Origin: Cypionkella aquatica
GTDB taxonomy: Bacteria; Pseudomonadota; Alphaproteobacteria; Rhodobacterales; Rhodobacteraceae
Direction of reading: 5' to 3'
Assembly: GCF_030161095.1 (NCBI RefSeq)
Contig: NZ_BSPP01000004.1
Coordinates: 1-64,000 of the forward strand
Length of the DNA: 64,000 nt
Positions within the stretch are counted from its first letter, which is position 1. Each line of letters begins with the position of its first letter. This document shows positions 5,208-29,059 of this stretch, piece after piece. The position numbers were made by a program, and so were the translations under genes. The notes beneath the pieces were generated by a model that did no database searches, had not been told where the DNA came from, and saw nothing but the letters and a program-made list of their open reading frames with translations.

Positions 5208-6659
5208 CTATTCGGCCTTTCCTTCAATATCGCCCCGGCCATTGAACACACTGTCATAATGCACGCGGTCGTTGCTTGGGTTGGCTTGTGTTCCCAGATC
5301 CTGCACCCAGAACCGCAGATCAGTCCTTGCGGCCTGCGCAGCACTTGACCCTGCAGCAGCCGTCACAAACAGCCGCTGGGTCTTGGTTTCATTGGCAGGC
5401 ACCAAGACCTTCAGCCCTGCCGCACCCTCCAGCGCCAACCCGAACGCCGCATCCGAGGTGGCAGCAAAGGTGAACCAACGATCCTCGCCATGCTTGTTGC
5501 GCAACCGCAGCTCGTAAGTGTTGCGGATCGCACCATCCGACAGCGTCACAAACAGCGGATTGCGCAGCGGCGTCACATTCACATCAATCGAGGCGCGCAG
5601 GAACAAAGCCGCGACCAGCGCCACTCCGATCCCAGCCCATAGCACCGCGTAAAGCATGGTTCTGGGCCGGAACACATGGCTCCAGATCGACTTGGGCGCT
5701 GCTCCGGCACGCTCGCGCACCTCATCGGTCAAAGCCATATAGCTGATCAGGTTCAGCGGCTTGTCGATCTTGGCCATCACATCGTTGCAGGCATCAATGC
5801 ACAAACCGCAAGTGATGCAGGCCATCTGCTGCCCGTCCCGAATATCAATCCCCATCGGGCAGACGTTGACGCAGGCCATACAATCAATGCAATCGCCGTG
5901 GCCTTCGACACTGGCCTTGCCCCGAGGCTCGCCACGCCAGTCGCGGTAGCCAATCGTCAGCGTATCCTCATCAACCATCGCCGCCTGAATCCGTGGCCAC
6001 GGGCAGGCGTAAATGCAGATCTGCTCGCGCGCAAAGCCGCCAAACACAAAGGTCGTCGCGGTCAGAATAGCCATCGTGGTATAGGCCACCGGATGCGCTG
6101 TGCCCTGAATCAGATTGGCCGCCAAAGTCGGCGCATCGGTGAAATAGAAGACCCAAGCCCCGCCGGTGGCCAAACCAATCAGCAACCAGACCGCCCATTT
6201 CAACAGCCGCTTGCGCGCCTTTTCCAGATCCCAAGCTTGCCGATGCAGCCGCAGCCGCGCATTGCGGTCGCCCTCAATCCAACGCTCCACCAGAATGTAA
6301 AGATCAGTCCAGACCGTCTGCGGACAGGCATAACCGCACCAAACCCGCCCTGCGGCGCTGGTGAACAAGAACAGCCCCAACCCCGCCATGATCAAAAGGC
6401 CCGCGACGAAATAGAATTCGTAGGGCCAAATCTCGATCATGAAGAAAAAGAACCGCCGATGCGCCAGATCGACCAGCACCGCCTGATCCGGCAGGCTTGG
6501 CCCACGATCCCAGCGCAGCCACGGCGTGACGTAGTAGATCGCCAGCATCAGCCCCATCAACGCCCATTTCAAGCTGCGAAACGTGCCTTTCACCCGGCGC
6601 GGAAAGATCGGCTCGCGGGCGGCATACAGGCTGGGCGGTGGGACATCAGGGCTTTGCAC
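5208..6659 (-). CDS. ccoG: cbb3 oxidase accessory iron-sulfur protein CcoG (RdxA/FixG)
   Basis: A 483-residue polyferredoxin-like membrane protein. Several transmembrane helices carry the WCGYACPQTVWTD motif. They are followed by two [4Fe-4S] motif sets (CIDCMACVNVCP and CITCGLCIDACN, around residues 260-310) and a C-terminal periplasmic Ig-like domain. CcoG is implicated in copper reduction/handling for cbb3 biogenesis. It is the first gene of ccoGHIS, and an FNR-type box lies 58 bp upstream of its ATG. Confidence 0.95.
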   Translation of the reverse strand: MQSPDVPPPSLYAAREPIFPRRVKGTFRSLKWALMGLMLAIYYVTPWLRWDRGPSLPDQAVLVDLAHRRFFFFMIEIWPYEFYFVAGLLIMAGLGLFLFTSAAGRVWCGYACPQTVWTDLYILVERWIEGDRNARLRLHRQAWDLEKARKRLLKWAVWLLIGLATGGAWVFYFTDAPTLAANLIQGTAHPVAYTTMAILTATTFVFGGFAREQICIYACPWPRIQAAMVDEDTLTIGYRDWRGEPRGKASVEGHGDCIDCMACVNVCPMGIDIRDGQQMACITCGLCIDACNDVMAKIDKPLNLISYMALTDEVRERAGAAPKSIWSHVFRPRTMLYAVLWAGIGVALVAALFLRASIDVNVTPLRNPLFVTLSDGAIRNTYELRLRNKHGEDRWFTFAATSDAAFGLALEGAAGLKVLVPANETKTQRLFVTAAAGSSAAQAARTDLRFWVQDLGTQANPSNDRVHYDSVFNGRGDIEGKAE

Positions 6660-26755: not shown

Positions 26756-27130
26756 TTACTCGGACTTGGGTTTGTAGTTGGTATCTTCGACGATCCGGGC
26801 CGATTTGCCGCGACGATCGCGCAGGTAATACAGCTTGGCGCGACGCACGCGGCCACGACGGACCACTTCGATGCTGTCGATGTTGGTCGAATACAGCGGG
26901 AACACACGCTCCACACCTTCGCCAAACGAAATTTTGCGGACGGTGAACGAAGCCGCGATGGTCGAGCCGCCTTTACGGGCGATGCACACACCTTCGTAGT
27001 TCTGCACGCGCGAGCGGGTGCCTTCGGTCACTTTGAAACCGACTTTCACGGTATCACCGGCTTTGAAATCCGGGATTTTCTTGCCAAGCGCAGCGATCTG
27101 CTCGGCTTCGATGATGGCGATCAAGTTCAT
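26756..27130 (-). CDS. rplS: 50S ribosomal protein L19
   Basis: 124 residues with [28 protein letters not shown] and [37 protein letters not shown] (quoted in part), diagnostic of L19, which sits at the subunit interface. In related genomes it follows trmD closely; here 1.1 kb containing an opposite-strand orphan gene separates them. Confidence 0.96.
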
Positions 27131-27634
27131 CGCAGTTCCTTTATATGCAGGGTTTTCCCTGACGTGATGCAGCCGTAGAGCTTCTGGTCTTCGATCGGGT
27201 CGCTACCTGTCCGGCCTAAACCCGGATGTGATAACCCCGCCAGAGATGCGGCTTGCGTTTATAGTCCGCGCCTTTGTCCAGGCTTGCAGAAGAAGGCAAG
27301 CATTGCGGCAAAAGGAATCGGGCCCGATGGGCTTTTGACCCCGGACAGGCGGCGTATAGGCGGCGGCCAAGGGGGTGTCAAGGTAAGGTCAGCCGGACCC
27401 TGCTGCGGCGTTCAAATTGCACGCAATGCTTGTGTGAAAATCAGCTCTGCCGTATGTTTATGGCAATTATTCAGCGCCAATGCGCGCCTATTCTGTTTGC
27501 ACTTGACCGATCTGCACCTTGCCCACGGCCTTTGCGCCGAACTTTGTAACCGCCTGTTTTCGATTTCTGGCAGAGCCAGAGTGACCGCACTTTACATATC
27601 CATTGGATAAAATTGCATAAAAAGGAGTTTTCTT
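27131..27634. other. Noncoding region between rplS and the orphan gene
   Basis: About 500 bases without a credible gene. The part near rplS should hold its promoter and leader. The part from about 27420 to 27634 is AT-richer than the surroundings (runs such as TTTATGGCAATTATT and GATAAAATTGCATAAAAAGG) and probably holds the orphan gene's promoter. Short open frames here overlap each other and lack ribosome sites. Confidence 0.6.
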
Positions 27635-28129
27635 ATGGCGACTTATCGACATGACTGGGAGCTTGGACCCGTCTCTCCCACCGTTACGGCGCTGCGCGCG
27701 ATGGCCATTCTGCAAGCGCGCCCGAACGATATTTTTCCGTTTACTGTCTCGGGGCGTGGCGGGGTTTCGTCGATTCGGTTGGGGATCATCTATGATTTGA
27801 TTGATACGGTCGGGCCGTTCAACAACATGGGCACCGGGTCAGATCCGGTTCAGGTCAGCGTTGTGACAAGCCTGATGTTCACCTTCAATACCTTGGCCGG
27901 GCATCACCGTGGCGCGGGGCAGACGATTTCGTTTGAATGTGCCGAGGTTGGCGGCAACGTCCAGCTGTCGCAATACGGCACCTATGTCAGCACCTTGGCG
28001 CATCCGCTGACGTCGCTGTTCAATCTGGGGGCCAATGCGGGGGCATCGGGGGCTTGGGCCTTGCAGGCCCATAATCTGCGGCTGGCCTTGGGCATTGCGA
28101 CGGTGCCGGTGCGCTTTACGGTCTGGTAA
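27635..28129 (+). CDS. Orphan protein of unknown function inside the trmD-rplS cluster
   Basis: A 164-residue protein, MATYRHDWELGPVSPTVTAL..., with a strong ribosome site (AAAAAGGAG) 8 bases before the ATG. It has no signal peptide or transmembrane segment, no lysine at all and a single Cys. The pattern is beta-rich and weakly charged, ending VPVRFTVW. It is on the opposite strand to the conserved trmD and rplS genes that flank it and has an AT-rich upstream region, which suggests insertion by transfer. I cannot assign a family. Confidence 0.7.
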   Translation: MATYRHDWELGPVSPTVTALRAMAILQARPNDIFPFTVSGRGGVSSIRLGIIYDLIDTVGPFNNMGTGSDPVQVSVVTSLMFTFNTLAGHHRGAGQTISFECAEVGGNVQLSQYGTYVSTLAHPLTSLFNLGANAGASGAWALQAHNLRLALGIATVPVRFTVW

Positions 28130-28161
28130 CGGCCGCTGGCGGCGCTGCCGAAGCCTTTCGT

Positions 28162-28226
28162 GGGGATATCCTTACACAGAGGATGACCGAAGGATTTGCT
28201 CTTTTTGAAATACTCGCCGCGGAGCG
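28162..28226. repeat. Degenerate copy of the dispersed palindrome
   Basis: GGGGATATCCTTACACAGAG plus GATGACC (28162-28188) resembles the right arm of the 7890 element. CTTTTTGAAATACTCGCCGC (from about 28200) resembles the variant arms at 14729 and 47659. It lies between the convergent orphan gene and trmD. Confidence 0.6.
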
Positions 28227-28240
28227 TTCAACAGCAGCCG

Positions 28241-29059
28241 TCAGGCCTTGCGCCGCAAGTAGGCTTGCCACAGATCGGGGCGGCGGGTCTTCGTAATCTC
28301 CTCGGCCTGAGCCTGCCGCCATTTCGCGATGGCGGCGTGGTTGCCCGATTGCAGAACCTCGGGGATCGGCAGATCGTTCCAGATGGCAGGGCGGGTGTAT
28401 TGAGGGTGCTCTAGCAGGCCATCCGAGAACGATTCCTCGACCGTCGATTCGTGGTTGCCCAGCACCTTTGGCAGCAGCCGCACGGTGGCGTCGATCAGCG
28501 CCGAGGCCGCAATTTCGCCCCCGGTCAGCACGAAATCACCCAAAGAGACTTCTTCGATGTCGTGGTGATCAAGCAGGCGTTGATCGACACCTTCAAACCG
28601 ACCACACAGCAGCGTCACGCCATCGCAGGCGGCAAAGCGGCGGGCCATCGCCTGATTGAACGGCTTGCCGCGCGGCGACAGGTAAATCACTGGCCAGCGG
28701 TTGCGGTCGCGCGGCGTGTGCTGGGCCGCTTCACCCAGCGCCGCGTCCAGCACATCGGCGCGCAAAACCATGCCCGCGCCACCGCCTGCCGGGGTGTCAT
28801 CGACGTTCAGGTGCTTGCCCTGCCCAAAGCTGCGCAGATTGATCACATCCAGCGCCCACAGGCCCAGATCAAGCGCCTTGCCGGTCAGCGAAATGCCCAG
28901 AATACCGGGAAAGGCATCGGGCATCAGGGTGATGATCTTGGCCCGCCACGCATTTTTGACATGCAACGGATCTTCCATCAGATCGCGTGGCTTGAGGCTG
29001 GCGCGGATCGAGATGCGGCCATGCGATTTGTTCGGCGGGGTTTCAAAGCTGTCGGTCAT
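28241..29059 (-). CDS. trmD: tRNA (guanine37-N1)-methyltransferase
   Basis: A 272-residue SPOUT methyltransferase. It has TLMPDAFPGILG near the N-terminus, DDTPAGGGAGMVLRADVL, the knot segments YLSPRGKPFNQ and LCGRFEGVDQR, FVLTGGEIAA and GNHESTVEESFSDGLLEHP. It modifies G37 next to the anticodon and prevents frameshifting. I start at MTDSFETPP (29059), which leaves about 35 extra N-terminal residues compared with E. coli TrmD. Confidence 0.95.
   Translation of the reverse strand: MTDSFETPPNKSHGRISIRASLKPRDLMEDPLHVKNAWRAKIITLMPDAFPGILGISLTGKALDLGLWALDVINLRSFGQGKHLNVDDTPAGGGAGMVLRADVLDAALGEAAQHTPRDRNRWPVIYLSPRGKPFNQAMARRFAACDGVTLLCGRFEGVDQRLLDHHDIEEVSLGDFVLTGGEIAASALIDATVRLLPKVLGNHESTVEESFSDGLLEHPQYTRPAIWNDLPIPEVLQSGNHAAIAKWRQAQAEEITKTRRPDLWQAYLRRKA

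Follow-up and report, generated by a model that had tools for sequence, protein, structure and literature searches.

How did a gene of 164 codons come to lie antisense between trmD and rplS in the window, the whole stretch of 64,000 nucleotides of Cypionkella aquatica DNA analysed here, and what does it encode? As an overall explanation, to which we give roughly one chance in three, a transferred accessory gene encodes a small cytosolic helix-grip protein that binds a ligand. The features on which the argument depends are the following.

26756 to 27130, minus strand: rplS (L19), NCBIfam match with 149 bits against a cut-off of 91.
27353 to 27381, minus strand: rplS promoter-like block, left intact; by eye, TTGACA and TATACG spaced by 17 nt.
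About 27384 to 28149, no strand: DNA that the gene-free sites in three other genomes (G305, G297 and G247) lack, by blastn and MAFFT.
27435 to 27634, plus strand: AT-rich upstream stretch, GC 0.46.
27622 to 27627, plus strand: Shine-Dalgarno sequence AAGGAG, 7 nt from the ATG, read directly.
27635 to 28129, plus strand: the orphan gene, with ATG at 27635 and a stop ending at 28129, 164 amino acids, conserved in the two relatives L002 and L003.
28241 to 29059, minus strand: trmD, NCBIfam match with 290 bits against a cut-off of 220.

The gene order at the locus is rpsP, rimM, a hypothetical gene, trmD and rplS. Both neighbours of the orphan gene are genuine by the NCBIfam cut-offs and lie on the minus strand, and the start codon, stop codon and AAGGAG at 7 nt agree with the original prediction of a 164-residue gene with a strong ribosome site, placed between trmD and rplS on the strand opposite to theirs.

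Relatives were sought among 84,980 species genomes, with the requirement that at least one of six octapeptides be matched exactly, so that distant relatives would be missed. Two were found, L002 in a Cypionkella metagenome-assembled genome (MAG) and L003 in a MAG labelled Rhodobacter, with 81 and 82% identity over residues 1 to 164 and no gaps. L002 apparently comes from the same genome as G304 of the genus survey, and the copies known here thus number three. Substitutions at the first, second and third codon positions amount to 22/19/96, 23/23/81 and 25/14/89 in the three pairwise comparisons; third positions account for 96 of the 137 and 81 of the 127 differences between the window copy and its two relatives. 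None of the three copies has a stop within this frame, whereas each of the other five frames contains stops. Since the substitutions fall mainly at third positions and the proteins are 82% identical without gaps, the ORF is a genuine protein-coding gene. The values obtained by NG86 for the three copies (dN 0.11 to 0.14; dS 1.4 to 2.6, saturated) indicate strong purifying selection. Were the ORF spurious, or born de novo in an enlarged spacer, the orphan product and the unusual upstream composition would be accounted for, but this is next to impossible given that the protein recurs, 82% identical, in a different species and at a different locus, with substitutions mainly in third positions.

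The protein had been predicted to be an orphan, and it has remained one in the libraries searched, with no clear similarity to a known family. Pfam, PHROGs, NCBIfam, PADLOC and the PDB sequences yielded no significant match; a single NCBIfam family appeared at E 0.19 for one member, and phmmer matches to PDB entries at E 0.15 to 0.88 vanished under a profile search. No description of the gene was found in the literature at the level of titles and the openings of abstracts.

The distribution of the gene was surveyed in overlapping sets of genomes (genus, family, order, phylum, class and relatives). In the genus a full-length copy occurs in 2 of 15 genomes, the window's own and G304, and is lacking in the other 13, five of which gave partial matches at E 0.02 to 0.4. 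The family set, 295 Rhodobacteraceae genomes from 294 genera with about one genome per genus, contains it in the own genome only, as do the sets for the order (390 genomes) and the phylum (398). The class set (385 genomes) added one partial 17-bit match to the own copy, and the set of relatives (389 genomes) contained the own copy and that of G304. Weak matches in G307, G306, G305, G247, G297, G560 and the viral sequence L004 were judged to be chance, as realignment left partial matches of 4 to 16 bits; the two strongest reached E 0.0002 and 0.0007, but in 435 stretches preselected for similarity, and the pieces from G247 and G297 did not reach E 1 on realignment. The searches run thus did not place the gene at the same site in most Rhodobacteraceae. 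As an accessory gene it belongs to an undescribed and very rare family, of which three copies are known here.

The sites at which these copies lie bear on how they were acquired. The L002 copy occupies the same trmD-rplS spacer as that of the window, whereas the L003 copy lies in a different spacer, between rpoC and a gene for an EamA transporter. At both types of site the orphan gene is antisense to two co-directional genes, and it ends on the side where the first of them has its 3' end. At the nucleotide level the three copies resemble one another only over the coding sequence and some twelve bases ahead of it; no convincing flanking repeats or conserved insertion site shared across the copies, and no mobile-element machinery beside the gene, were seen. 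In Cypionkella, too, the orthologues of rpoC and the EamA gene are near each other, with about 0.1 kb between them in G303 and 1.8 kb in the window's own genome (G000). The interval of about 1.8 kb in the own genome (L059, G000:C13:65800-71500) contains ORFs, including one of 130 residues without a Pfam match, and appears to be another insertion-prone spacer. In L003, a strong hairpin read by eye at 5517 to 5543 (GGCCCCCTGTC / GACAGGGGGCC) lies between the orphan gene and rpoC and is perhaps a shared terminator.

In the window, the limits of the extra DNA were set by the blocks shared with gene-free sites, which end by blastn at 27360 and, on the trmD side, at 28149 to 28155, and which MAFFT extends on the rplS side to about 27383. 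TTGAC and TATACG of the promoter-like block occur in 6 of 6 aligned genomes; the block was judged to be a promoter by eye and was not detected by a strict scan. The sequence upstream of rplS from 27131 to 27383 is well conserved in the genus (75 to 86% identity in blastn blocks). This stretch is longer than a promoter needs and could be a leader RNA; as a leader candidate it has no Rfam match.

The original prediction held that trmD and rplS are usually adjacent in relatives. Of 61 genomes, 59 yielded trmD, and among the best 30 of these 59 loci, the own included, rplS was within reach of trmD in 25. The gap is at most 437 bases in 17 of the 25, as predicted, but it reaches 740 to 1114 bases in the other eight, two of which are the own genome and G304. 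Of the other six long spacers, two contain a BrnT/BrnA pair, one codes for a MAPEG protein and one for an EthD protein; the proteins encoded in the last two matched nothing in Pfam. The BrnT/BrnA toxin-antitoxin pair was recognized by Pfam in G295 (L025) and by resemblance in G303 (L026). The trmD-rplS spacer behaves as a place that tolerates insertions within a conserved translation cluster.

Patchiness combined with different chromosomal sites, our mark of a horizontally acquired orphan gene, was found here, and mainly because of this patchy distribution and the two different sites we regard horizontal transfer as probable. According to this scenario the gene would have come into genomes of Cypionkella and of a "Rhodobacter" MAG and would have settled, antisense, in spacers between co-directional housekeeping genes, in the window sparing the promoter-like block of rplS. 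The arrival had been predicted to be recent. The gene is indeed an accessory insertion, absent from the site in most relatives examined, but the distance between the two copies in the same spacer lends recency no support: 54 of 82 fourfold sites differ between the window and L002 copies, versus 140 of 329 for trmD, rimM and a ParA-like gene pooled (Fisher p 0.0002), a test that left out rplS (15 of 65) and the hypothetical neighbour (60 of 125, closer to the figure for the orphan gene). Since these copies diverge more than the three pooled neighbours, they are old or arrived separately; weak expression could also have raised the divergence.

The comparison with L003 is less decisive. Window and L003 copies differ at 43 of 80 fourfold sites (0.54), versus 70 of 117 (0.60) for the EamA gene and 157 of 416 (0.38) for rpoC. 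This distance exceeds that of rpoC and does not fall clearly short of that of the EamA gene; taken alone it agrees with ancient vertical inheritance followed by loss and a move to a new site, and so it does not prove transfer. If the gene had long been inherited vertically in the Rhodobacteraceae, with loss in nearly all lineages and one relocation, this resemblance to genome orthologues would be explained, and the strong purifying selection would agree with it. However, such a history would have to be reconciled with a gene carried by the own genome only among the 295 of the family, with 13 of 15 genomes of the genus devoid of a full-length copy, and with same-spacer copies that have diverged beyond the pooled neighbours; we consider it unlikely.

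Phages offer another rival explanation, in which a single cargo gene (a moron) has remained in the spacer and may serve, for instance, in superinfection exclusion or defence. In favour of it, the gene is lone and patchy, has an AT-rich upstream stretch and is placed outside the flanking genes. Yet there was no match in 50,697 phage records and none in PADLOC, and PHROGs gave one family without known function at E 0.076 for only one of the three members. Viral contigs yielded one partial stretch of 37% identity, which was judged to be chance (6 bits by profile), 12 candidates without any relative, and five stretches with the motif patterns, none of which was a relative by profile (best E 0.22). 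The viral-contig scans require exact short peptides and could miss remote relatives; at the sensitivity of the searches in phage records, PHROGs and viral contigs, no relative in a phage or prophage was found, and the library of viral structures gave a best E of 0.034 and nothing at 0.001. We consider an origin as a phage moron improbable, with about the same standing as old vertical descent. Plasmids gave protein matches only at E 0.8 to 9 and DNA matches that cover at most 10% of the gene; together with the lack of a match in phage records, this counts against transfer.

Composition adds little to the case for transfer. GC is 0.46 in the 200 bases upstream of the gene, versus 0.613 in the whole window, and no other sampled 200-base stretch of the window (overlapping, in steps of 20) is so low, which bears out the predicted AT-richness. 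The promoter of its own that had been proposed for the gene gained no support, as a simple strict scan found no sigma-70-like site upstream. Codon usage is the lowest in comparison with nine chosen neighbours but comes tenth from the bottom in a broader list of 36, shadow ORFs included, which leaves a foreign codon usage ambiguous. An imperfect 17-base direct repeat (82%), possibly due to chance, was seen at 27811 to 27827 inside the gene and at 28220 to 28236 downstream, near the end of trmD.

The lack of lysine noted in the original prediction holds for the window copy (0 of 164 residues). Given a mean of 2.9% lysine over the 59 non-overlapping stop-to-stop ORFs of the window, the p value is about 0.007 for a property chosen after the fact; two of the 59 ORFs are lysine-free, the stop-to-stop stretch of the orphan gene, which exceeds its coding sequence, not being among them. 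One relative has a single lysine and the other none, and the absence of lysine was accordingly dropped as a functional or family trait. The aromatic C-terminus RFTVW is identical in all three copies, and no signal peptide is evident by eye. The idea that this end might be an outer-membrane C-terminal signal was abandoned, as the alternation does not fit.

The product had been thought of as a possible beta-sandwich; this guess has given way to a weak indication of a helix-grip fold, from AlphaFold2 models of low confidence. When the three sequences were modelled with the window copy in first place, pLDDT was 38; with the L003 copy leading, it was 42, with pTM 0.44, and the other four models of that run had 26 to 31. 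Among the 50 PDB matches listed for the second model, all those with a family name are of the PYR/PYL, PR-10/Bet v 1 or Aha1 type, the structural-genomics entries 3q63, 3uid and 2k5g bearing no family name; the best E is 9.1e-5 and TMq 0.43 to 0.56. With VIA, the pLDDT 42 model reached Z up to 10.6 (rmsd 3.2, 124 residues) to the helix-grip fold, where 7 to 8 is the best Z that the tool states as typical of models without a clear match. The first, poorer model gave mainly the helix-grip class, with Z up to 4.3 and other folds mixed in. A helix-grip fold (Bet v 1/SRPBCC-like) is thus a tentative assignment, short of even odds, and ligand binding by the protein is more doubtful still. If the models are right, the product would be a small soluble cytosolic protein whose helix-grip cavity might hold a small hydrophobic molecule.

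At the sequence level this assignment found no echo. No member of the family matched an SRPBCC family in Pfam or NCBIfam (3 of 3 negative), and a profile comparison with 10 of the 28 SRPBCC proteins found scored 11.1 over a single column, less than any of the six highest among 60 shuffles. Such negative comparisons are weak because the orphan profile is shallow (Neff 1.2), and a control comparison of DUF1990 with the SRPBCC profile itself reached only a probability of 14.7% and a score of 26.1. Tests of strand parity and helix periodicity were not significant (p 0.17 and 0.28).

Residues 82 to 90 were likened to a motif of DUF1990, and the likeness was then tested with DUF1990 proteins. The stretch resembles "FAYGTLPGH" of the DUF1990 (PF09348) alignment, whereas the L003 copy has THAAH in place of TLAGH. 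hhalign aligned residues 80 to 147, including the motif region, with four DUF1990 proteins (among them L063; a fifth, a 90-residue Rhodococcus protein, was left out), but with a probability of 0.9% and a score of 17.5 that was beaten by 3 of 100 column shuffles, and the kinship was rejected as not convincing. PF09348 matched none of the three members and nothing in the own genome; of the 52 genomes and 14 control genomes scanned, one in each set contained it. Three partial viral matches to the L063 protein were set aside, and the same protein had no match among the PDB sequences.

Taken as a whole, the original prediction survives as to an orphan and an accessory insertion, the own promoter and the recent arrival gained no support, and the beta-sandwich gave way to another tentative fold; the absence of lysine is not a family trait. 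A bolder version, a new family that disperses as an isolated gene, repeatedly into ribosomal and RNA-polymerase operon spacers, and that forms a helix-grip ligand-binding branch unrecognisable by sequence, appears distinctly improbable. A transferred accessory gene, our preferred reading, is an ordinary kind of thing that does not overturn known biology; its merit is that of a clean small example, real, constrained, present at more than one site and with gene-free sites for comparison.

Among known systems, the Bet v 1/START/SRPBCC proteins (AHSA1, PYR/PYL, PR-10) resemble the orphan protein in the order of elements in its low-confidence model, i.e. strand, helix, strands and C-terminal helix. 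They differ in that no sequence or profile similarity to them was found in the orphan protein, which continues for 13 further residues, ending in RFTVW, past the last helix. The taxonomically restricted orphan accessory genes of bacteria are the closer parallel: they too are single genes, patchily distributed and without homologues beyond a few genomes. The present gene does not differ from them in kind, and in its case two loci and strong constraint are documented.
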